DNA of 64,000 bases, taken from positions 28,002 through 92,001 of IMG/VR virus record IMGVR_UViG_3300021375_000017, one strand, 5' to 3'. The stretch comes from a virus. The position numbers were made by a program, and so were the translations under genes. Within the stretch, counting starts at the first letter, position 1, and every line of letters starts with the position of its first letter. This document shows, in pieces, positions 36,623-48,639 of this stretch. A model generated the notes under the pieces. It made no database searches, was not told the DNA's origin, and saw nothing but the letters and a program-made list of their open reading frames with translations.

Positions 36623-37678
36623 ATGAGTAAATATAATAAGACTGCACTAGTGCTTGGTGCAGGTGGTTTTATTGGTAGTCACATGGTAAAGAGACTACGT
36701 GCAGAAGGATACTGGGTTCGTGGAGTTGATCTCAAGAACCCAGAGTTCACTTCGACTGAAGCAAACGAATTCATTCGAGGAGACTTGCGTGAAGCTGACT
36801 TTGTTCGTCGTGTTCTTCGGTTCAAAGGATATCAAGGGAACTTCTATCATAGTGTTCCTGAAAGACTTCATCTTCCTTTTGATGAGATCTATCAGTTTGC
36901 TGCTGATATGGGTGGTGCAGGTTTTGTTTTCACTGGTGAGAACGACGCAGACATCATGCACAACTCTGTAACTATTAATCTTAATGTTCTTGAATCGCAG
37001 CGTCAATTAAATGACTATAAACAGGTCAATAGAACTAAAATTTTCTACTCTGGTTCTGCTTGCATGTATCCAGAGCACAATCAACTCGATCCAGATAAAC
37101 CTGATTGTCGTGAAGAATCCGCATATCCAGCAGCACCAGACTCAGAATATGGATGGGAGAAACTCTTCTCCGAACGACTATACCTATCTTATAATCGTAA
37201 TCATGGTATTCCTGTTCGGGTTGCTAGGTATCACAATATCTTCGGACCAGAAGGAACCTGGCAAGGTGGAAGAGAGAAGGCTCCAGCTGCTATCTGCAGG
37301 AAAGTTGCTAACCTCCCGCCACAAGGTGGAGCCATCGAAGTGTGGGGAGATGGTTTACAGACTCGTTCCTTCTTGTTCATTGATGAATGCATCGAAGCGA
37401 CTAGAAGAATGATGGACTCTGACTTCATTGGACCAGTGAATATTGGTTCTGAAGAGATGGTGACTATCAATCAACTTGTAGACATTACCGCGAGAGTAGC
37501 AGAGAAGGAAGTTACTAAGATTCATATTGATGGACCTCTAGGTGTTCGCGGTCGTAACTCTAACAATGATCTCATTCGTGAGAAGTTGAGTTGGAATTAT
37601 GAGATGACACTTGAAGAAGGTATCCGGTACACATATTACTGGATTAATGAACAGACCAATATACAGGAGACAAAATAA
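36623..37678 (+). CDS. GDP-mannose 3,5-epimerase-like NAD-dependent epimerase
   Basis: 351 residues of the short-chain dehydrogenase fold. NAD site VLGAGGFIGSHMVKRL; catalytic GSACMYPE (Cys), YGWEKL (Tyr/Lys) and GGREKAPAAICRK (Lys), the set used by GDP-mannose 3,5-epimerase; then WGDGLQTRSFLFIDEC. Length and motifs match plant-type GME closely. Product would be GDP-L-galactose or GDP-L-gulose. First gene of a run of eleven overlapping glycan genes. Confidence 0.88.
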   Translation: MSKYNKTALVLGAGGFIGSHMVKRLRAEGYWVRGVDLKNPEFTSTEANEFIRGDLREADFVRRVLRFKGYQGNFYHSVPERLHLPFDEIYQFAADMGGAGFVFTGENDADIMHNSVTINLNVLESQRQLNDYKQVNRTKIFYSGSACMYPEHNQLDPDKPDCREESAYPAAPDSEYGWEKLFSERLYLSYNRNHGIPVRVARYHNIFGPEGTWQGGREKAPAAICRKVANLPPQGGAIEVWGDGLQTRSFLFIDECIEATRRMMDSDFIGPVNIGSEEMVTINQLVDITARVAEKEVTKIHIDGPLGVRGRNSNNDLIREKLSWNYEMTLEEGIRYTYYWINEQTNIQETK

Positions 37679-38391
37679 TGGCTGGTATCACACATAGTCA
37701 GATTAAAAATCTGATGGCAGGCAGAGATAAAATTACTATATTTGAAATTGGTTGTGCAGATGGTAGAGACACTAAAAAGTTTCTGAATACTTTTGGTCCC
37801 GAACTTACCATCTACACCTTTGATCCTGAACCTATTAATGAGGTATTTGTAACACAACTTGGTCAGAAAGATGCATTTGGTGGTGGCAATGACCAACTGG
37901 CAAATGATGATAGGCATATCTTCCATCCTTATGCGATGTGTGATTATAAAGGAACCATCACATTTAACAGGTCTCAAAACTTAGATGGACCTGGACAAGG
38001 TGAAAATTGGGGTAGATACTCTGGTTCGATTCACCGTCCTGTAACTCACTTAGAAAGTCCTAAGTACGGTAAACGATGGGCTGCATGTATTTTTGAGGAA
38101 ACTGTAGAAGCAAAATGTTCTTCAATTGACATTTTCTGTGAAGAAAATGGTATTGATCATGTTGATTTTGTATGGATGGACACTCAGGGAGCAGAAAGAG
38201 ATGTTCTCAAAGGTGCTCAGAGAATGCTCCCAAACATCGATTATATCTATACTGAGTACTATGATGAAGAGATGTATAAAGATTGTGCAGGATTAGAAGA
38301 GATCAAATCTCTTCTTCCTAACTATGTTCTTGAGCACAATTGGAGATGTGATGATGCTGATGGTGGTGATGTTCTAATGAGGAGAATATGA
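37678..38391 (+). CDS. FkbM-family SAM methyltransferase
   Basis: 237 residues. IFEIGCADGRDTKKFL is the SAM loop; later CSSIDIFCEENGIDHVDFVW and MDTQGAERDVLKGAQ are the FkbM signature. FkbM enzymes O-methylate sugars or other small hydroxyls. It overlaps both neighbours, fitting sugar methylation in this cluster. Confidence 0.87.
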   Translation: MAGITHSQIKNLMAGRDKITIFEIGCADGRDTKKFLNTFGPELTIYTFDPEPINEVFVTQLGQKDAFGGGNDQLANDDRHIFHPYAMCDYKGTITFNRSQNLDGPGQGENWGRYSGSIHRPVTHLESPKYGKRWAACIFEETVEAKCSSIDIFCEENGIDHVDFVWMDTQGAERDVLKGAQRMLPNIDYIYTEYYDEEMYKDCAGLEEIKSLLPNYVLEHNWRCDDADGGDVLMRRI

Positions 38392-39239
38392 AGGTATTGA
38401 TTCTCGGTTCCAGCGGTCAGATCGGAGCATATTTAACTGAGTACCTTAGTGGTAAGTGTCATGAAGTATTTGAGTATGATATTGTCAACACAGAAGATCA
38501 AGACCTTACACAGATTCCAAACCTTGCATTAGAACATCTGATCAAGGAATCGGACTTTGTGTTCTTTCTTGCCTTTGATGTTGGTGGTTCTAGGTATCTG
38601 AAGAAGTATCAACACACTTTCAAGTTCATTGACAACAATGCCAGGATGATGGTAAGTGTCTTTGGTCTTCTAGAGAAGTATAAAAAGAGATTTGTGTTTG
38701 CATCTTCACAGATGAGTAACATGAGTCACTCTCCTTATGGTGTGATGAAGAGAGTTGGTGAACTCTATACCAAAACATTGAACGGTCTTCTTGTTAAGTT
38801 CTGGAATGTTTATGGTATTGAGAAAGACATGGACAAGGCTCATGTTATCACTGACTTTATCAAGAGGGGATTTGAAGAGGGTCAGTTTGAGATGTTGACT
38901 GATGGTACAGAACAGCGTCAGTTCTTATATGCTGAGGATTGTTGTGAAGCATTGGAGACAGTAATGGAAAACTATACTGACTTCAAACCAGAAGATCCAC
39001 TTCATATTACATCATTCCATTCAGACTCTATTAATCATATTGCTGGTATTATCCAAGGTCAGTTCAACTTAATTGGTAGGGATGATGTAAGAATCACACC
39101 TGGTGTTGCAAAAGATACTGTTCAACTTGATAAGAGGAATGAGGCCGACAACTACATACTAGGTTGGTGGGTACCAAAGACAGGAATTGACGTAGGTATC
39201 TCAAAAGTGTTTAACGAAATGAAGAAGAATTATGAATAG
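38388..39239 (+). CDS. NAD-dependent sugar epimerase/dehydratase
   Basis: 283 residues, SDR fold. NAD loop VLILGSSGQIGAYLTEYL; SSQMSNMSHSPYGVMKRVGE supplies Ser and Tyr-x3-Lys; EQRQFLYAEDCCEAL is the usual C-terminal SDR signature. Substrate not determinable: UDP- or GDP-hexose is likely. Starts in an ATGA overlap. Confidence 0.85.
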   Translation: MKVLILGSSGQIGAYLTEYLSGKCHEVFEYDIVNTEDQDLTQIPNLALEHLIKESDFVFFLAFDVGGSRYLKKYQHTFKFIDNNARMMVSVFGLLEKYKKRFVFASSQMSNMSHSPYGVMKRVGELYTKTLNGLLVKFWNVYGIEKDMDKAHVITDFIKRGFEEGQFEMLTDGTEQRQFLYAEDCCEALETVMENYTDFKPEDPLHITSFHSDSINHIAGIIQGQFNLIGRDDVRITPGVAKDTVQLDKRNEADNYILGWWVPKTGIDVGISKVFNEMKKNYE

Positions 39240-39948
39240 ACAACAGGTGCTGGCAGTAGCAACTTCATCAGATCTTGGATCAAATGCAAACGTATTGTGT
39301 GAGTTTATAGGTAAGAAAAAAGACTCTACCTTTGTTGACCTTGGTGTTCGTGATGGTTTTTCTTCTGCCCTTCTTTCTTTGAACTCTAAGAAGAATAACA
39401 ATAAGATCTATGGTGTCGATGTAAACTTCAATAACTTTAGATCTGAACTTGTAGATGGCCAGAACTATCTACAACTAGAAGGTGATAGTTCCACTATTGG
39501 TAAGTATGCTGACCTTGAAGACTTGAAAGAGATTGACTTCTTGTTTGTTGACTCTCTTCATGTTAGAGAACAGGTTCTTTGTGAACTTCATTACTGGGTT
39601 CCTCGTTTGAAGGAAGGTGGTACTGTCGCATTCCATGATTCTCATTGGCCAGAAGGTAAAAGAGACCAGACTGGTGGCAAGTCTTGGAACCGTGTTGATG
39701 ATGCCATTAGAGAGTTCTTTGGTTTAGATGTTCTTGAAGACTATGAAGATGACAACCTTGAGGTTACGTGTTATCCTCCTAGCTGGGGTATGACGTTTGT
39801 CACACTCAAGACTAAAAACTTTGAGAGTATTGTGAAAGATTGGAATAAAGTTTTCAGTACCCGTAATGACTTGATTTCAGTATTTTGGAACAAGGAAAAT
39901 GTTGGAGATAGGACAATTGAATTGGAGATGAGTTATGAAGCTAATTGA
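39232..39948 (+). CDS. class I SAM methyltransferase
   Basis: 238 residues. TFVDLGVRDGFSSALLSL is motif I, IYGVDVNFNNF motif II, IDFLFVDSLHVREQVLCELH the Asp-His active region, and GGTVAFHDSHWPEG the closing motif. Resembles methyltransferase-24/cephalosporin hydroxylase-like O-methyltransferases. Likely acts on a sugar or an amino acid in this cluster. Confidence 0.8.
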   Translation: MNRQQVLAVATSSDLGSNANVLCEFIGKKKDSTFVDLGVRDGFSSALLSLNSKKNNNKIYGVDVNFNNFRSELVDGQNYLQLEGDSSTIGKYADLEDLKEIDFLFVDSLHVREQVLCELHYWVPRLKEGGTVAFHDSHWPEGKRDQTGGKSWNRVDDAIREFFGLDVLEDYEDDNLEVTCYPPSWGMTFVTLKTKNFESIVKDWNKVFSTRNDLISVFWNKENVGDRTIELEMSYEAN

Positions 39949-40816
39949 TGTTTTTAATTTTTCACATGAACCTATTGAACTTTTAGAGATGAGACTGAGG
40001 ATTGTGTATCCTCATGTCGATCTCATCTGTATCAATGAAAATGCCACTACCTATACTGGTATTGAACGTGAACTACAATTTGAGAAGCATAAAGAACATC
40101 TAGATTTTTATTTTGGTGATAAGATTGTTCATCGTGTAATTGATACCAGAGAACGTAATCTAGACTTCACCACATTCCAACAGGAGTATCATACTAATAG
40201 AGATAAATCACATCCTACTAGACCTGCTACAAGAGGTCTTCCAGAACGTTGGCATCGTTCAATGTATGGTCGAGATTGTCTTATTGAATCTCCTTTAGAG
40301 GTTGCTGAGGATGAGGACATTATCATTCAGAGTGATTTGGATGAGATTCCTAACCCTGAGTTTCTGAAAGAAGCAAAAGAGATTGTGGAAGATGGTTACA
40401 TGTATACGTGTATCCAGAAGTTCTATATGTGTCATGTGAATAGACTCCAAACTGACAAGGGTAAGGATGTTGATGATTGGAGAGGTTCACAGTTTAGTAC
40501 ATTCAAGTATCTGAAAGAACATGGTGGTTTTAATGATTGTAGGAATCTTCCTCACGAACACGAATACACAATCGATAATGGAGGGTGGCACTTTAGCTTC
40601 CTTGGAGGAGAGGACAAGATCAAACAGAAACTCAATGGTTATGGTCACCAAGAACATAACCATGACGGTGTGAAGAACTCTCTTGGTTCTAACATCACAG
40701 ATAACCAGGATATTCTTGGTAGAACCTGGATGGGAACAAGAATTGTTCCTCTTGATAATGATCTCCCTGACGAGATTGTAAATAACCCAGAACGCTATAA
40801 GGAGTTCATTGCATGA
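39935..40816 (+). CDS. glycosyltransferase family 17-like
   Basis: 293 residues. DVFNFSHEPIELLEMRLRI opening, IIQSDLDEIPNPEF (DxD-type metal site), and GGWHFSFLGGEDKIKQKL, all typical of GT17 (relatives of beta-1,4-N-acetylglucosaminyltransferase III). It would transfer GlcNAc or another sugar from a nucleotide donor. Overlaps neighbours by 4-14 bases. Confidence 0.85.
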   Translation: MKLIDVFNFSHEPIELLEMRLRIVYPHVDLICINENATTYTGIERELQFEKHKEHLDFYFGDKIVHRVIDTRERNLDFTTFQQEYHTNRDKSHPTRPATRGLPERWHRSMYGRDCLIESPLEVAEDEDIIIQSDLDEIPNPEFLKEAKEIVEDGYMYTCIQKFYMCHVNRLQTDKGKDVDDWRGSQFSTFKYLKEHGGFNDCRNLPHEHEYTIDNGGWHFSFLGGEDKIKQKLNGYGHQEHNHDGVKNSLGSNITDNQDILGRTWMGTRIVPLDNDLPDEIVNNPERYKEFIA

Positions 40817-41772
40817 TTACATCTGAAATATATTATGGATCTGGTATTGGAAACCAGATTTGGCACTACGTTGTTACCAGACTCATTGCAGAGAAGAATG
40901 GTTATAAGTATGGGATCATGGGTAAAGATAGGTGGAAAGGTCAAGCCTTTATGCATATCGACTTTGGTGAAGAAGTAGTAGGTGGTTCAGGTCCAGAAGG
41001 AGGACCACCTGAGAGTCTTCCAGAAGGTATCACAAACTATTATAAAGAACACTTCCTACGTCACCCTGTGACTAATGGAAACGTAGGTCTTCCTGATCCT
41101 AACCTTCTCAATGTTCCTGATGGAACTAAGATTGAAGGAACCATGCAGAGGATGTCATATGTTGATGAATTTCGTGAAAAGATCTGTGAATGGTTATCTT
41201 ATTCTGAGGAATTGAGTTTCCCTGAATATACTGATAAAGATTCTTGTGTCATTCAGTTTCGTGGTGGTGATTACCTGACTGGTAACTCTGCACTTCCTCC
41301 ATCGTATTATGAAATGGCGATGGATAATATGAGGAGGGTGACCAATAATACAAAGTTGAAGTTCTATGTTGTTACTGATGATCCCACTAACGCAGCAAAG
41401 TATGTTCGTGGTGCAGAGGTTATTGGTTCTGCCATCACTAAAGAGAAAGACCCATATCAAGGAAGTATAGGATGGTATAAGTATCCTGGTGGTCCTATTG
41501 GTATTGATTATGCTATTCTCAATCAAGCAGAGAATGTGATTATCAGTTCATCTACCTTTGCCTTCTGGCCAGTATGGACTAACACTAATGCAGAGAATGT
41601 AATCGCTCCCAAGTATTGGTTTGATTGGAACAACTCTGATGGTTGGTGGAGACCTTCTGAAGCTATTGTTGATGACTGGTTCTGGATGGACAGGACAGGT
41701 GATATTGACAATGGTGTAGACTGTAAGAAACAGTTTGACAAATACAAAGAAACTAATAACTTGTATCAATGA
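40813..41772 (+). CDS. GT11-type glycosyltransferase (alpha-1,2-fucosyltransferase-like), copy 1
   Basis: 319 residues. GNQIWHYVVTRLIAEKNGYK is the GT11 opening, CVIQFRGGDYL the conserved H/RxGGDY-type motif, FYVVTDDPTNAAKYV and NVIISSSTFAFWPVW the donor-site region. GT11 enzymes normally use GDP-L-fucose; since this cluster carries a GME-like enzyme, GDP-L-galactose is a candidate donor. The copy at 43303 is closer to the family consensus. Confidence 0.85.
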   Translation: MITSEIYYGSGIGNQIWHYVVTRLIAEKNGYKYGIMGKDRWKGQAFMHIDFGEEVVGGSGPEGGPPESLPEGITNYYKEHFLRHPVTNGNVGLPDPNLLNVPDGTKIEGTMQRMSYVDEFREKICEWLSYSEELSFPEYTDKDSCVIQFRGGDYLTGNSALPPSYYEMAMDNMRRVTNNTKLKFYVVTDDPTNAAKYVRGAEVIGSAITKEKDPYQGSIGWYKYPGGPIGIDYAILNQAENVIISSSTFAFWPVWTNTNAENVIAPKYWFDWNNSDGWWRPSEAIVDDWFWMDRTGDIDNGVDCKKQFDKYKETNNLYQ

Positions 41773-42446
41773 TTGATCTACCTAATGTAACACTTATTTG
41801 TGTTTCCAGTGTGAATTTTGAACAGACCCTGTATGCCTTTCAAAAGAGTATGCAGGGTATTCGTTTTGGTGCTGTGAAACTTGTATCAGATCAGGATCGT
41901 CCTGACTTTGAGGAAACAGGTATCACTGTAGAGAAGTGTCCAAAGATTACTTCGATTGATGAATACAGTCACTACATGATATATGATCTACAGAAACATG
42001 TAGACACAACTCACTGTATTACTATCCAGGCTGACGGGTTTATTATCAACCCTGAGAAGTGGGATCCATTGTGGTTAGAGTACGATTATATTGGAGCACC
42101 ATGGGAACACTCTGACGGGGCATACATTGACCCTTGGGGAGGACACCAGAGAGTTGGTAATGGTGGATTCACTCTCCGCTCTAAGAAACTCCTAGAGGTT
42201 CCTAACAATGCTTATGTCCACTTTGATGTGAACTGGGGCAACTTCTACAAACACATGGACGCAAATGATACCGCAGAGGATGGATGTATCTGTGTCCATA
42301 ACAGACATATATACGAAGTATTAGGTTGTAAGTTTGCTCCTGTAACTGTTGCCGCCAGGTTTGCCCATGAGAAACCTGTTCCAGAAACCAGAGGTATCAC
42401 ACCTTTCGGATTCCATTATCATCTTCCTCCAGGAACTGTATTATGA
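41769..42446 (+). CDS. DUF5672-like putative glycosyltransferase
   Basis: 225 residues. LPNVTLICVSSVNFEQTLYA, TTHCITIQADGFIINPEKW, YDYIGAPWEHSDG and RVGNGGFTLRSKKLLE match the DUF5672 pattern (QxDxxx...W, D.IGAPW, VGNGG.SLRS). The family is believed to hold GT-A glycosyltransferases; donor unknown. Confidence 0.8.
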   Translation: MIDLPNVTLICVSSVNFEQTLYAFQKSMQGIRFGAVKLVSDQDRPDFEETGITVEKCPKITSIDEYSHYMIYDLQKHVDTTHCITIQADGFIINPEKWDPLWLEYDYIGAPWEHSDGAYIDPWGGHQRVGNGGFTLRSKKLLEVPNNAYVHFDVNWGNFYKHMDANDTAEDGCICVHNRHIYEVLGCKFAPVTVAARFAHEKPVPETRGITPFGFHYHLPPGTVL

Positions 42447-43306
42447 AAATTATTATTTGGGGACACTACCCTCTCCATAGTTCGACACATGGATATATTC
42501 ACGACACATATTTCAAAGCATTTGAAAGTCTTGGTTATGATGTAATGTGGGTCTCTAATGAAGACCATCTCATAGACTATGCAGGTACTGTCTTCTTTGT
42601 AGAGGACTCTCAGAAGTCTGCAATGCCTGTTAGACCTGACTGTAAATACATCACTCACCACGTAGACACCAAATACTTAACAGACCGTGGGGTTCCCTTT
42701 GAGAACGTTCTTAAACTAGGTAACTGTATTCGTAATACAGTTCATTTTGAAAAGGTTGAAGACCTATGCCATTGGGATGAGTCAACTAGAACTCTCTATC
42801 AAACATGGGGAACTGATCTTCTTCCCAATGAGATCAACGTTGATGAACCTACAAAGTTTGACGAAAGTAATCGATACATCAATTACATTGGTATGATGTA
42901 TGAACAAGGTCCATATTGGATTCAATACTTTGCACACTGTGCAGAAAAGAATGGTAAAGAAGTCAAACTCTACACACAGTCTGTGTCTCATCAAGAGAAT
43001 CGTATGTTGATTCGAAACTCATTTATCTGTCCTGACTTCAGAAGTGATTGGCATCTACAGTGTGGTTATATTCCTTGTAGGATTCAGAAGAATATTAGTT
43101 ACGGAAGAGTTCAAGGAACTAACTCTCCATTTATCAAAGAGGCCTTTGGTGACTACGTGGTTTATGGTGGAACACCAGAAACTCTTTACCATAACTTGAT
43201 TGATACAGAAAGAGGTGGTAAGATCAATATGAAGGAGGCAATGCAGTTCATTAAAGACAAGCATACCTACATTAATCGAATCAACAATATTCTAAAGTTC
43301 TTATGA
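42443..43306 (+). CDS. putative GT-B-type glycosyltransferase
   Basis: 287 residues starting KIIIWGHYPLHSSTHGYIHD, then YFKAFESLGYDVMWVS, NYIGMMYEQGPYWIQYF, and SYGRVQGTNSPFIKEAF, the kind of donor-binding segment seen in GT-B enzymes. No exact family is recognised. Its place between two sure glycosyltransferases supports the call. Confidence 0.65.
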   Translation: MKIIIWGHYPLHSSTHGYIHDTYFKAFESLGYDVMWVSNEDHLIDYAGTVFFVEDSQKSAMPVRPDCKYITHHVDTKYLTDRGVPFENVLKLGNCIRNTVHFEKVEDLCHWDESTRTLYQTWGTDLLPNEINVDEPTKFDESNRYINYIGMMYEQGPYWIQYFAHCAEKNGKEVKLYTQSVSHQENRMLIRNSFICPDFRSDWHLQCGYIPCRIQKNISYGRVQGTNSPFIKEAFGDYVVYGGTPETLYHNLIDTERGGKINMKEAMQFIKDKHTYINRINNILKFL

Positions 43307-44094
43307 TTGGTTTTAATCACCTTGGTATTATTGGAAGACTGGGTAACCAGATGTTCCAATATGCAGCACTCCGTGGTATTGCTAATACTCACGGTTATGA
43401 GTTCACTATTCCTGAAAGTGACTTCAATGATGAGTGGAATGACCATCAACTTTTTGATGCATTTAACCTTCCACATCTAAAGAGTAAAGGAAGAGTTTCT
43501 GACAAGTTTGTACAAGAAAGACAGTTCAATTATGATTCTGAAATGGTTGAACAGTGTCCTGATGATATTAGTCTTTATGGATACTTTCAGACAGAGAGAT
43601 ACTTCTCACACATTGCAGACTCTATCAAAGAGGACTTCACATTCAAGAAAGATGTAGTCACAAACTGTAAAGAAGTTATGGAGGAACTCTCAGAACCCAT
43701 TGCACTTCATGTCCGTAGGACTGACTATGTGGAGAAGTCACAAGACCATCCACCTTGTAGTCTAGAGTATTATCATATAGCACTAAAACGTTTCAATGAA
43801 AAGAGACCTGTTGTTATCTTTACTGATGATGTGCAGTGGTGCAAAGACCAGGACATCTTTGCACCTGATCGTTTCCTTATCTCAGAGACAGGAAACAATG
43901 TGTATGATTTGTGCCTTATGACTCTATGTACTGATTATATCATTGCAAATTCTTCATTCTCTTGGTGGGGTGCATGGTTGAGTCAGAATCCTGATCCAGA
44001 AGTTATTGCTCCTAAGACTTGGTTTGGTTCTACTGGATATACTGCAAAGAATAATACTGTAGATATTATCCCTAATCGTTGGACTCAAATTTGA
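43303..44094 (+). CDS. GT11-type alpha-1,2-fucosyltransferase-like enzyme, copy 2
   Basis: 263 residues. GRLGNQMFQYAALRGIANTH, IALHVRRTDYVEKS, PVVIFTDDVQWCKD and ADYIIANSS-type YIIANSSFSWWGAWLS are the classic GT11 motifs. Would add an L-fucose-like sugar (possibly L-galactose) in alpha-1,2 linkage. It is a diverged paralogue of the gene at 40813. Confidence 0.9.
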   Translation: MIGFNHLGIIGRLGNQMFQYAALRGIANTHGYEFTIPESDFNDEWNDHQLFDAFNLPHLKSKGRVSDKFVQERQFNYDSEMVEQCPDDISLYGYFQTERYFSHIADSIKEDFTFKKDVVTNCKEVMEELSEPIALHVRRTDYVEKSQDHPPCSLEYYHIALKRFNEKRPVVIFTDDVQWCKDQDIFAPDRFLISETGNNVYDLCLMTLCTDYIIANSSFSWWGAWLSQNPDPEVIAPKTWFGSTGYTAKNNTVDIIPNRWTQI

Positions 44095-44849
44095 TGACTA
44101 AACTTTCTATTGCTATCCCAACCTATGAGATGAATGATAAAGGTGCAGAATATCTCACAGAGTTGTTTGAGACTATTAAGTTCCAAACATTTCAAGATAT
44201 TGAAGTTTGTGTATCTGACCACTCACAGGATGATAGTATTCTAGATGTTTGTGGTGAGTATGCAAACTACTTTACTATTCAATACTACAAGAATGAAGAG
44301 AAGAGAGGTAATGGTCCAGCCAATACTAACTCTGCTGTAGAGATGTGTAGTGGTGACATTACTAAGATTATCTTTCAGGATGACTTACTTATTAGTTCTA
44401 TTGCACTTCAAAGAATTGTAGAGACTTATGAGGAACAAAACTGTAAGTGGTGTTTCAATGGGTTCTTACACACCAGTAACGGTAGAGAACACTTCCGACC
44501 AATGATCCCTAAATGGACACCGGAAATGTTAGAAGGTCGTAATCTTCTTGGTAGTCCTTCTAGTGTTTCTTTTATTACTAAAAAGTTTCTACCATTCGAT
44601 GAAGAATTAGTATTACTTATGGATACTGAATTCTATCACAGAATGAGATATGATCATGGTATGCCATATATCATTGAAGAGTATTTAACATCAAATAGAG
44701 AGCATGATAATCGTGTTAGTTCTTCGACTGTTAAATATAATGCTAGGGTAGAACACCCTGAAGGTCCTTGGTTAGTTAATACCGAAGAACTTAATTATGT
44801 TATTGACAAACATTTAGAAACAAGAAAGTATCCAGATGAAAAAGTTTGA
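44094..44849 (+). CDS. family 2 glycosyltransferase
   Basis: 251 residues from the ATG overlapping the upstream stop. GT-A fold: LSIAIPTYEMNDKGAEYL, DIEVCVSDHSQDDSI, GNGPANTNSAVEMCSG, IIFQDDLLI (DxD region), and a late DTEFYHRMRYDHG. Inverting transferases of this family build polysaccharides or glycolipids. Confidence 0.9.
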   Translation: MTKLSIAIPTYEMNDKGAEYLTELFETIKFQTFQDIEVCVSDHSQDDSILDVCGEYANYFTIQYYKNEEKRGNGPANTNSAVEMCSGDITKIIFQDDLLISSIALQRIVETYEEQNCKWCFNGFLHTSNGREHFRPMIPKWTPEMLEGRNLLGSPSSVSFITKKFLPFDEELVLLMDTEFYHRMRYDHGMPYIIEEYLTSNREHDNRVSSSTVKYNARVEHPEGPWLVNTEELNYVIDKHLETRKYPDEKV

Positions 44850-45663
44850 TTTATCAAGGGCAACCTTTATTATCCCAATCAGAATAGAATCTGATGACAG
44901 ATTGAGGAATGTAATCACCTCAGTCTGTTTTTTATTGTCTAATTTTGATACTAATGTAATTATCAAAGAGGTTGATAAGACCTCTGTATTTCACGAGAAA
45001 GCACTCCCACAGATCAAAGATTTTTGTGAGGACATTAGTGACCTAACTCATGTGTTTGAACAGTCAGACTCACCTTCTTTTCATAGACAGAAGGTTCTGA
45101 ATGATATGATTATGATGTCCACCACACAAGTGGTTGTGAATTATGATTGTGATATTATCCTTCCCATTGCTTCTTACATGCAAGCATATGATAGGATTGT
45201 AACTGGATCATCTGATGTTGTTTATCCCTATGGTAGTGGTAACTTCCAACTTCAAGTATTTGGAGATGACCAAGTTGTTACTAACTTTCTTGTGAATGAG
45301 TTTGACTTCTCTGCATTCAAAGATGTATTAAAAGTCTATGATGCAAAGTATGGATTTGTTCAGTTCTTCAATAGAGGTGTCTATATTGAAGGTGGATTAG
45401 AGAATGAAAACTTTGTTGCATATGCCCCAGAGGATGTTGAAAGACATTATAGATACACTACACTGGGATACAGTGTTTCTAGAATCAATGATGTAATCTA
45501 TCACTTAGAACATTCTAGGTCTCCAAACTCATGGTTTAATAACCCGTTCATGCATTCAAATAATGTTGAATGGGAAAAGATTCAGAGGATGGACAAAGAA
45601 ACTCTAAAGGAATATATCACTAGTCAAGATTATTATAAGGTGAGAATTGATGGACAAAAATAA
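44836..45663 (+). CDS. GT2-like galactosyltransferase-type enzyme
   Basis: 275 residues. ATFIIPIRIESDDRLRNVI opens a GT-A fold; SPSFHRQKVLNDMIMMSTT, VVVNYDCDIILPI (DxD), and GFVQFFNRGVYIEGGLENE followed by YAPEDVERHYRY resemble the N-terminal and GGxxxED regions of galactosyltransferase/chondroitin-synthase families. Overlaps both neighbours. Confidence 0.78.
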   Translation: MKKFDLSRATFIIPIRIESDDRLRNVITSVCFLLSNFDTNVIIKEVDKTSVFHEKALPQIKDFCEDISDLTHVFEQSDSPSFHRQKVLNDMIMMSTTQVVVNYDCDIILPIASYMQAYDRIVTGSSDVVYPYGSGNFQLQVFGDDQVVTNFLVNEFDFSAFKDVLKVYDAKYGFVQFFNRGVYIEGGLENENFVAYAPEDVERHYRYTTLGYSVSRINDVIYHLEHSRSPNSWFNNPFMHSNNVEWEKIQRMDKETLKEYITSQDYYKVRIDGQK

Positions 45664-46438
45664 GGCAGTATTCAAACTCAAAAATATTGGCCCAATCTAT
45701 TGTATCAATCTCGATGATCAACCTGAAAGATGGGAATACATGGAGAACCAATTTAAGTATTGGGAGATTGAAAACTACACTAGAGTCTCTGCGTATGATG
45801 GTAGAGAGGATGACCTAAGTGAGATACTCAAGGGTCGTTATCCAGACATGATGAGTTCTGGTGAGATTGGTTGTACTACATCTCACTTGAAAGCAATCAA
45901 ACAATTTTATGATTCAGGTGAACCCTATGCAATCATGATGGAAGATGATTGTGAACTTGATTTGGTAAGGTTCTGGAACTTTACTTGGCAAGACTTCTAT
46001 GCCAAGATTCCTTATGACTGGGATGTGTGTCAAATTGCAATTATATGTACAGGAGATATTCATATCAAAGTTCACAAGAGGTTTGTGAATGAGTTCTCTA
46101 CTGCATGTTATTTGATCACACGTCATCATGCAGAGAAATTAATTCGTCTTCATTGTAGAGGTGACAAGTACAAACTGGACAATGGTGTCAGACCACGTCC
46201 AGTTGCTGATGACCTGGTGTATAACTCAGGTAACACCTACGCCCTTCCACTCCTTCTGTATAAGACGGAACTGGGTTCAAGTATTCATCCTGACCATGTT
46301 GATGCATTCCACAAAGGAAATTATCAAGCTCAGATGAATTTCTGGAGTCAGAAGGGAGCACAGATGTCCATCAACGAACTGATGGAGTTTGATCCTTACC
46401 TGGGTCGGGTATCTGATCCAACACAACAAAAGGGTTGA
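45647..46438 (+). CDS. family 25 glycosyltransferase
   Basis: 263 residues. YCINLDDQPERWEYMENQF, SSGEIGCTTSHLKAIKQFY and AIMMEDDCELD are the defining GT25 motifs (LPS beta-1,4-galactosyltransferase and related). Last gene of the glycan cluster; a new early/late promoter pair overlaps its stop. Confidence 0.92.
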   Translation: MMDKNKAVFKLKNIGPIYCINLDDQPERWEYMENQFKYWEIENYTRVSAYDGREDDLSEILKGRYPDMMSSGEIGCTTSHLKAIKQFYDSGEPYAIMMEDDCELDLVRFWNFTWQDFYAKIPYDWDVCQIAIICTGDIHIKVHKRFVNEFSTACYLITRHHAEKLIRLHCRGDKYKLDNGVRPRPVADDLVYNSGNTYALPLLLYKTELGSSIHPDHVDAFHKGNYQAQMNFWSQKGAQMSINELMEFDPYLGRVSDPTQQKG

Positions 46439-46470
46439 CAAGATCACACTCTTATGATATATTATAAATA
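46435..46470 (+). promoter_or_regulatory. tandem early (TTGACA-TATATT) and late (TATAAATA) promoter
   Basis: TTGACA 46435-46440, 17-base spacer, TATATT 46458-46463, and TATAAATA 46463-46470 overlapping the -10. It would express the barrel gene at 46616 in both phases, as for psbA. Confidence 0.72.
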
Positions 46471-46615: not shown

Positions 46616-46987
46616 ATGTTCAAATCTGTATTCGCAGCAACTGCTGCTCTGTCCATGTCCACTGGCGCTGCTTTCGCTGGACCCTACGTCAATGTAGAAG
46701 CTAATTCTGGTTGGACCGGTTCTGATTACGGTGGTACCGCAACCGATCTTCACGTTGGCTACGAAGGTGAATTCGGTGAGAGTGCTTCTTACTACGTCCA
46801 AGGTGGTGCAACTATCGTCAGTCCTGATGGTGCTGAAAGCGACACTGTTCCTTCTGGTAAGGCAGGTCTCGGTCTTGCACTGACTGATGCTCTCGGTGCT
46901 TATGGCGAAGTCTCCTTCGTTGGTAGTGGCGACAGTGACATCGATCGCGGTTATGGTACCAAGTTGGGTCTGAAGTACAGCTTCTGA
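46616..46987 (+). CDS. predicted small outer-membrane beta-barrel protein (copy 1)
   Basis: 123 residues from the ATG at 46616. Signal peptide MFKSVFAATAALSMSTGAAFA, then GPYVNVEANSGWTG and alternating strands (HVGYEGEFGESASYYVQGGA, AGLGLALTDALGAYGEVSF) ending in LGLKYSF. A C-terminal Phe with alternating hydrophobics is the recognition signature for outer-membrane barrel assembly. Upstream in-frame ATG at 46541 lies in the structured leader and is rejected. Related to 47204. Role unknown: porin, receptor masking or a virion component. Confidence 0.65.
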   Translation: MFKSVFAATAALSMSTGAAFAGPYVNVEANSGWTGSDYGGTATDLHVGYEGEFGESASYYVQGGATIVSPDGAESDTVPSGKAGLGLALTDALGAYGEVSFVGSGDSDIDRGYGTKLGLKYSF

Positions 46988-47010: not shown

Positions 47011-47036
47011 AGACCTCCTTCGGGGGGTCTTTTTTT
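47011..47036 (+). terminator. Rho-independent terminator
   Basis: AGACCTCC with GGGGGGTCT around a short loop, then about seven T. Separates the first barrel gene from the Pho-box unit. Confidence 0.85.
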
Positions 47037-47100
47037 ATGGGCAGTTTTTGAAAGAGTTAAATTTTATTTAAGTGTGTATATATACCGAGGTTTGTTTATC

Positions 47101-47154
47101 TTTAAATCATCTTAACTTCATTTTAAAGACAAACCCTGAAGACCCTGTTACAAT
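47101..47154 (+). promoter_or_regulatory. Pho-box-like repeats and -10 element
   Basis: TTTAAATC (47101-47108), CTTAACTT (47111-47118) and TTTAAAGA (47122-47129) repeat at 10-11 base spacing; the middle one fits the cyanobacterial PhoB repeat (PyTTAAPyPyT/A). A -10-like TACAAT follows at 47149-47154. Cyanophage pstS genes are known to respond to host PhoB; this fits. Confidence 0.7.
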
Positions 47155-47203
47155 AAAAAAGTCTTCAACGGACAAACCCAAAAACATTACAAAGGAATTT
47201 TAA

Positions 47204-47563
47204 ATGAAACAAATTGCACTTGCCGTCCTGACATTAACTGCACTGGCGACACCTGCTATGGCTGGTCCCTATGTTGAATCCAAGTCTGAGTTCAAAGGAA
47301 CTGATGAAGATTTTGGTAAGCAAGTCCACCAAGGACGTATTGGATATGAGTGGAAGACTGGAAACTTTGCTCCATACATCGAAGGTGGTGCTGGAGTATC
47401 TGTTCCCGATGGTGGAGAACAAGAAGGTTTTACTGCACTTGAACTCGGTAGTAAAGTAAAGATCACTGATAATTTCAGTGCTTATGGTAAGTGGGAAAAC
47501 ATCTTCCAAGAAGATTCTACCCGTGATTGGAAAGTAGAAGTCGGCACCAAGTACAAGTTCTGA
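47204..47563 (+). CDS. predicted small outer-membrane beta-barrel protein (copy 2)
   Basis: 119 residues. Signal peptide ending ATPAMA, then GPYVESKSEFKGTDED, repeated strand patterns (GRIGYEWKTGNFAPYIEGGA, ALELGSKVKITDNFSAYG) and a terminal VGTKYKF with Phe last. Same design as the gene at 46616 (GPYV after the signal, GGAG/VSVPDG core). It is the first gene behind the Pho-box-like element and sits 10 bases from pstS, so a phosphate-starvation pore is an attractive inference. Confidence 0.65.
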   Translation: MKQIALAVLTLTALATPAMAGPYVESKSEFKGTDEDFGKQVHQGRIGYEWKTGNFAPYIEGGAGVSVPDGGEQEGFTALELGSKVKITDNFSAYGKWENIFQEDSTRDWKVEVGTKYKF

Positions 47564-47573
47564 TAGAAAATAA

Positions 47574-48533
47574 ATGAAACTCAAAGCAATCGCAGCAACT
47601 GCAGTAACCATTCCTCTTATGGTTGCCTGTGGTGGAGTTAAGGAAACATTTCAACTAAGTGGTGCAGGTGCTACCTTTCCTGCTCCTCTCTATAACTCCT
47701 GGTTCCAACGAATGGCGCAGGAGACTGGTAACCAAGTAAACTATCAAGCAGTTGGTAGTGGATCTGGTGTCCGTCAGTATGTTGCTGGTACAGTTGACTT
47801 TGGTGCCAGTGATGGTGCTGTAAGTGATGAGAAGCAAACCATTCCGATGATCCACATCCCTATGACTGGTGGTGCTATTGTTCCTGCTTACAATATGCCT
47901 GGTTGTGATGTTAAGATGACTCAGACACAACTTGCTGATGTATATCTTGGTAAGATTACTAACTGGTCTACCTTTGGATGTGAAAGTAAAACTATTGTTC
48001 CTGTCTTCCGTTCTGATGGTAGTGGCACCACAAAAGGTTTCACTAACTCACTATCAGCATTCTCTCCTGAATGGAAAGAGAATGTTGGCACAGGTAAGGC
48101 AGTAAAATGGCCTGTTGGTATCGGTGGTAAAGGTAACTCTGGTGTTGCCGCACAAGTGAGGCAAGTTACTGGTTCTATTGGTTACCTAAATTATGGTTAT
48201 GTTGTAAACAGTGACTTCCAACAGGTTGCTCTACAGAACAAGGCAGGTAATTATGTCACAGCAAATGCTAAAACATCTGCAGCAGGTCTATCAAAGATCG
48301 TCCTGGACGATCAGCTTCGTGGTGCTGATGCTAACCCTGCTGGTGCCAATGCATATCCTATTGTCTCTCTGACATGGATTCTTGCTTACCCTGAATCCAA
48401 ACCAGGAGTAAAAGAGACTCTTCGATATATGTTGAGTCCTGAAGCACAATCTATCTCTGACTCACTAGGTTATGTTCCTCTTCCAGAGGACCTTCGACAA
48501 AGAGCACTAGGTGCTGTTGATACTATCAACTAA
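47574..48533 (+). CDS. pstS: phosphate-binding protein PstS
   Basis: 319 residues. Lipoprotein-type signal with MVACGG, then the PstS pattern: LSGAGATFPAPLYNSWF, VGSGSGVRQYVAG, DFGASDGAVSD, VFRSDGSGTTKGF and GSIGYLNYGYV, which carry the phosphate-binding Ser/Arg/Asp residues. It feeds the host Pst transporter. A known phosphate-stress gene of cyanophages, here linked to a Pho-box-like element. Confidence 0.96.
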   Translation: MKLKAIAATAVTIPLMVACGGVKETFQLSGAGATFPAPLYNSWFQRMAQETGNQVNYQAVGSGSGVRQYVAGTVDFGASDGAVSDEKQTIPMIHIPMTGGAIVPAYNMPGCDVKMTQTQLADVYLGKITNWSTFGCESKTIVPVFRSDGSGTTKGFTNSLSAFSPEWKENVGTGKAVKWPVGIGGKGNSGVAAQVRQVTGSIGYLNYGYVVNSDFQQVALQNKAGNYVTANAKTSAAGLSKIVLDDQLRGADANPAGANAYPIVSLTWILAYPESKPGVKETLRYMLSPEAQSISDSLGYVPLPEDLRQRALGAVDTIN

Positions 48534-48541
48534 ATTTACAC

Positions 48542-48567
48542 AGGACAGTTGAAAGACTGTCCTTTTT
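48542..48567 (+). terminator. Rho-independent terminator after pstS
   Basis: AGGACAGT / ACTGTCCT perfect 8-bp stem around TGAAAG plus neighbours, then six T. Confidence 0.88.
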
Positions 48568-48639
48568 TGATGGGCCCCCAGATGATGGTATGATGCAACC
48601 AGTATATCAAGGTGTAAGGTCTCATTAGAGTCCCTTTTT

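Follow-up and report, generated by a model that had tools for sequence, protein, structure and literature searches.

The arrangement of two small barrel genes before pstS is known from the Prochlorococcus phage P-SSM2. Its genes 246, 247 and 248 encode two DUF680 proteins and PstS, an order shared with our window, and as in the window a Pho box is found before 247 and none before 246. P-induction of P-SSM2 pstS and gene 247 was reportedly described by Zeng and Chisholm in 2012 and by Lin in 2016. The pstS gene of P-SSM2 is under the control of host PhoBR, PhoB binding and induction by P starvation have been demonstrated for other phage promoters, and under P stress phages bearing pstS escape delayed lysis (PMC10976474). 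The DUF680/PhCOG173 family has further been tied to phosphate limitation (PMC6224464), and Pho boxes have been described upstream of its genes (PMC9146016). Both barrels in the window belong by profile to this family (PhCOG173/DUF680/PF24653/phrog_417), for which these two studies do not distinguish the two paralog classes or their promoters. In view of the P-SSM2 layout, the published Pho boxes and the phosphate role, the regulation described here is ordinary for the group. The novelty put forward in an earlier sequence-only reading, a phage carrying both the outer-side and inner-side parts of phosphate uptake, is smaller than claimed there, since the three-gene order already exists in P-SSM2; the outer-side role gains a lead from host relatives. 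The host group of P-SSM2 is a different one, its sequences have diverged from those in the window, and the window adds a clear distal promoter element of pstS. The useful additions are this element, a paralog-specific split of promoters and relatives of the barrel at host zinc loci.

The window, which is the whole stretch of DNA analyzed, comprises 64 kb out of a 92-kb contig from a marine cyanobacterial virus, and all features given below lie on its plus strand. While the sequence-only reading had covered OMP-B, pstS and the repeats before them, OMP-A and the distal promoter element are additions. OMP-A (46619–46987), the first PF24653 barrel paralog, has 122 residues (phrog_417, 1.9e-54; PF24653, 4e-50) and is followed by an intrinsic terminator with an 8-pair stem and a T run (47011–47036). 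OMP-B (47204–47563; PF24653, 2.2e-40), the barrel of the earlier reading, has 119 residues and is 31% identical to OMP-A. As had been noted, pstS (47574–48533) begins 10 bases downstream of it; it encodes a periplasmic phosphate-binding protein of 319 residues, recognized by the pstS-family profile phrog_5385 (2.2e-167) and the PBP-like domain PF12849 (7.5e-36), and a second terminator with a 9-pair stem and a T run follows (48542–48568). With terminators after OMP-A and after pstS, OMP-B and pstS look like one two-gene unit. Before the operon lies an extended series of genes for nucleotide sugars and glycosyltransferases (36623–46438; families 2, 11, 17, 25, and epimerases), which perhaps serves surface glycan change.

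Homologs of OMP-B were found in 163 phage records, nearly all of them cyanophages, and OMP-A lies just upstream in 77 of the 101 OMP-B loci whose 5' flank was long enough. Sampling by pstS alone, a PF24653 gene directly upstream, ending at most 200 bases before pstS, was present in 61 of 66 loci. The synteny of pstS is said not to be conserved in cyanophages (PMC10976474); its immediate upstream neighbour is an exception.

Upstream of the two-gene unit, positions 47101–47131 read TTTAAATCATCTTAACTTCATTTTAAAGACA. The three repeats at 10–11-base spacing that had been read there are borne out, with TTAA cores beginning at 47102, 47112 and 47123. They make up a putative proximal Pho box (47101–47129) of tandem PyTTAAPyPyT/A-like units with an 11-base period, exact for the last two TTAA. 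The core promoter (47126–47154) consists of a degenerate −35 element, AAGACA, a spacer of 17 bases and the extended −10 TGTTACAAT (47146–47154), and its −35-like GACA overlaps the end of the box. A triple TTAA with gaps of 6–7 bases occurs once in 64 kb compared to 0.11 expected from dinucleotide shuffles, 11 of 100 of which contain one, and by itself, within the window, it is only suggestive of a Pho box. The evidence becomes strong through comparative data. When 55 non-redundant regions upstream of barrels located at most 40 bases from pstS were aligned on the extended −10 only (TGTTATAAT is the consensus in relatives), two TTAA units emerged 11 bases apart at a fixed distance, with 69–90% conservation at each base; at their end stands a −35-like GACA, separated from the −10 by 17 bases.

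An independent view comes from the hosts. Among 63 collected pstS promoters of Cyanobiaceae, 30 contain a TTAA-N7-NTAA repeat (consensus CTTAACCnnnCCATAACGACC), compared to 3.7% of shuffles. They share with the window the 11-base TTAA/ATAA repeat, a trailing GAC and a distance of about 18–19 bases to the extended −10; their GC content is higher than in the window, and they drive pstS with no PF24653 barrel. Since a consensus-letter score of three YTTAAYYW units separated the promoter classes weakly (21% versus 0%), we adopted a weight matrix trained on the host sites alone. With this matrix, position 47111 of the window reaches 9.6 bits and is eighth among about 128,000 positions. At 8 bits or more it recovers 67% of the pstS-adjacent OMP-B promoters, versus 2% of the OMP-A promoters, 13% where no pstS was found and 0% where a single barrel lies farther from pstS, and the best scores of the pstS-adjacent class exceed those of OMP-A paralogs and unlinked barrels combined (Mann-Whitney, p=4e-18). 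In the isolates P-SSM2, S-SM1, S-SSM5 and S-TIM5 the box of the barrel directly before pstS scores 7.4 to 14.2 bits, whereas this matrix detected none for the OMP-A paralogs (P-SSM2, S-TIM5) or for a podovirus barrel. That about one third of the pstS-adjacent barrels score below 8 bits is a point against the explanation we prefer. Control of barrel and pstS by a Pho box, as the sequence-only reading proposed, is nonetheless well supported by the host-trained matrix, conservation and promoter geometry, and judged from these sequences Pho control of OMP-B and pstS is very likely.

The paralogs differ in their promoters. OMP-A is preceded by a T4-late-type promoter, TATAAAT (46463–46469), a motif that also occurs in upstream regions of relatives: 35 of 43 for OMP-A (3.8% in shuffles) and 3 of 55 for OMP-B (7.8% in shuffles). 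Such a pattern indicates a regulatory split, in which one PF24653 paralog would be of late type and the other would respond to a host-like phosphate switch.

A conserved distal promoter element (47058–47096), composed of GTTAAATTTTATTTAAG, TATATA and then GGTTTGT, lies upstream of the proximal Pho box. In an exact pattern scan of IMG/VR (2.9 million viral contigs), 57 of 114 sites among the matches listed stand directly before pstS or OMP-B, whereas a control pattern with a spacer one base longer gave 0 of 108 such sites. In loci lacking OMP-B the element lies directly 5' of pstS. By these placements it is a promoter-like element specific to pstS. It has an 11-base TTAA pair of its own and may perhaps represent an older Pho promoter. 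At one locus (L155) the OMP-B-type −10 region is kept before pstS and OMP-B is absent, which looks like a deletion of the barrel gene.

PF24653 (Phage_OMP, 'Cyanophage outer membrane protein like beta barrel domain'; also PHROG 417, 'DUF680' and PhCOG173) is among the commonest cyanophage genes lacking an assigned function. OMP-B matches it over its full length (residues 1–119) with 138.2 bits, above the Pfam gathering score of 27 bits. The protein combines a signal peptide, in which an AMA/GPYV processing-like site can be recognized by eye at the N terminus, with a terminal F and amphipathic strands that alternate hydrophobic and polar faces (p=0.0036). AlphaFold predicts six strands in both paralogs, with a pLDDT of 84 for OMP-B and 78 for OMP-A. 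No closed outer-membrane barrel is known to have fewer than eight strands, so a six-stranded monomer would be an unusual small barrel, a model with missed strands or part of an oligomer. The closest structural neighbours are OprF, OmpX and OmpA-type domains together with parts of larger barrels, at tied Z-scores; a sequence search of the PDB with the PF24653 family profile returned nothing convincing, and Foldseek against the PDB gave no match with E <0.02. The family assignment, amphipathic strands, signal peptide and AlphaFold model agree with the outer-membrane β-barrel proposed before, and OMP-B is in all likelihood an outer-membrane protein.

Starting from the gene content, promoter geometry, conservation and likeness to host pstS promoters observed here, we infer the following course of events. 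In a phosphate-starved host, active PhoB would bind the TTAA direct repeats at 47101–47129 and, overlapping the weak −35, would bring the host's RNA polymerase to the extended −10 (47146–47154). The product would be a two-gene message for OMP-B and PstS. After export, OMP-B would reside in the outer membrane of the host, and PstS would supply the host PstCAB importer from the periplasm. OMP-B would then play its part in this nutrient-stress response at the outer membrane, most likely as an accessory to uptake or in membrane adjustment, and OMP-A would be a paralog made late and without phosphate control. A PhoB-switched OMP-B/PstS unit with OMP-B as outer-side accessory is, taken as a whole, the reading we moderately favour, and for the narrower claim that OMP-B helps phosphate acquisition we would put the chance slightly below even. 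Further observations weigh against the preferred reading. The PF24653 family also occurs without pstS, and the copy of podovirus P-SSP2 lies beside a photosystem gene and has no Pho box, which suggests that the basic role of the family is not phosphate-specific. During laboratory evolution of S-TIM4 in nutrient-replete WH8102 cultures a DUF680 gene was lost or inactivated, and the authors took this to mean that a gene for nutrient response had been given up (PMC6224464); we count this loss against our explanation as well.

Host genomes offer an indirect lead on the outer-side role. In a survey of 400 Cyanobiaceae genomes, 48 had PF24653-like matches. A few strong ones were short proteins, and the one contig examined among these (L639) is cyanophage-type by its neighbours; another cyanophage-type contig was found in a Lewinella bin (L585), L639 itself being in a cyanobacterial bin, so some 'host' matches stem from viral contamination or from prophage-like fragments. 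L638 and L640–L642 may be similar to L639. The bacterial proteins have 260–360 residues (loci including L643, L702–L705 and L629) and match the family distantly, above the cut-off with E about 1e-13 to 1e-8; they probably, though not certainly, share an ancestor with the phage barrels. In 16 of 18 host loci the neighbourhood includes ZnuA/ZnuC and/or CobW genes. These proteins thus share with OMP-B a membrane barrel next to high-affinity uptake, but they are larger, some are two-unit proteins, and zinc takes the place of phosphate. This type of barrel is thus found alongside systems that take up scarce nutrients with high affinity, for zinc in hosts and for phosphate in phages. A common setting does not prove a function, but it lends indirect support to a partner on the outer side of an uptake system. 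Near host pstS, the loci examined yielded no PF24653-like gene, which counts against the preferred reading and suggests that barrel and pstS were brought together in phages; a MED4-type host porin, which presumably adjoins pstS, was considered and then set aside. Together with the promoter split, the host relatives suggest a testable role, namely a small barrel that adapts the host outer membrane to scarce-nutrient uptake. If this is true, phages would have a hand in both membranes across which nutrients are imported, beyond the binding protein alone.

OMP-B might instead alter or mask the host surface, by superinfection exclusion or receptor blocking, and be switched on under P stress since infection is then slow. 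Small barrels of the OmpX/Ail type often function at surfaces, the AlphaFold model resembles OprF, OmpX and OmpA domains, and the occurrence of the family without pstS would fit as well. However, nutrient uptake accounts better for the Pho box and for the tight coupling to a pstS gene 10 bases away, and the loops of OMP-B are short and conserved instead of variable. We consider a surface function unlikely.

Somewhat less likely still is a true phosphate channel, in which OMP-B, alone or as a 12-strand dimer pore, would supply PstS. Five host relatives are two-unit proteins, as seen in those of about 260 residues at zinc-uptake loci; in four of the five the halves are detectably similar (30–34% identity), and Pfam finds two PF24653 stretches per protein in both that were tested. 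The six-strand model also superposes on parts of 10–12-strand barrels with 2.3–2.7 Å rmsd, compared to 4–5 Å on 8-strand barrels, at tied Z-scores, but the OMP-A model fits 8-strand barrels about equally well. The inward polar face of OMP-B, moreover, carries 9 K/R versus 9 D/E at near-invariant positions, suggests a core held by salt bridges more than it does an anion channel, and such bridges may close the lumen. The phosphate-entry pore suggested by the sequence-only reading is consequently not indicated, given six strands, this balanced interior and no anion ladder. A phosphate-selective porin of the OprP/OprO type, a 16-strand trimer with an arginine/lysine ladder, was rejected as a candidate in view of the 119 residues, six predicted strands and balanced interior charges. 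More specifically, a 12-strand channel split into two halves could be assembled in the outer membrane of the host, from two copies of OMP-B or from OMP-A and OMP-B, and would then resemble the two-unit proteins of host zinc loci. Such a channel is distinctly improbable; if real, it would give the phage a phosphate-switched outer-membrane entry route of its own, matched to its PstS.

A virion-associated or assembly protein, next to pstS through coincidence in a hyperplastic region, is suggested by the 122-residue DUF680 protein listed in the particle proteome of S-SZBM1 (PMC9146016). By its length that protein fits OMP-A, OMP-B having 119–120 residues, and the late promoter stands on OMP-A and not on OMP-B. 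The S-TIM4 study handled its DUF680 protein as non-structural (PMC6224464), and a host outer-membrane protein could contaminate particles. For OMP-B a place in the virion is accordingly most doubtful.

That the TTAA repeats are an accident of AT-rich phage DNA or the site of another regulator, as the triple TTAA in 11% of shuffled windows might suggest, has very little probability in view of the independent host-trained matrix, the conservation in 55 relatives, the right spacing to the −35 and −10, and the lack of the box in paralog promoters. Around the −10, an inverted repeat GAAGAC...GTCTTC is located on both sides (47138–47167). In addition, ACAAACCC occurs at 47129–47136 and 47175–47182, with GGTTTGT at 47090–47096, and similar repeats are found in many relatives; the inverted repeat and the ACAAACCC repeats are possibly a second operator.
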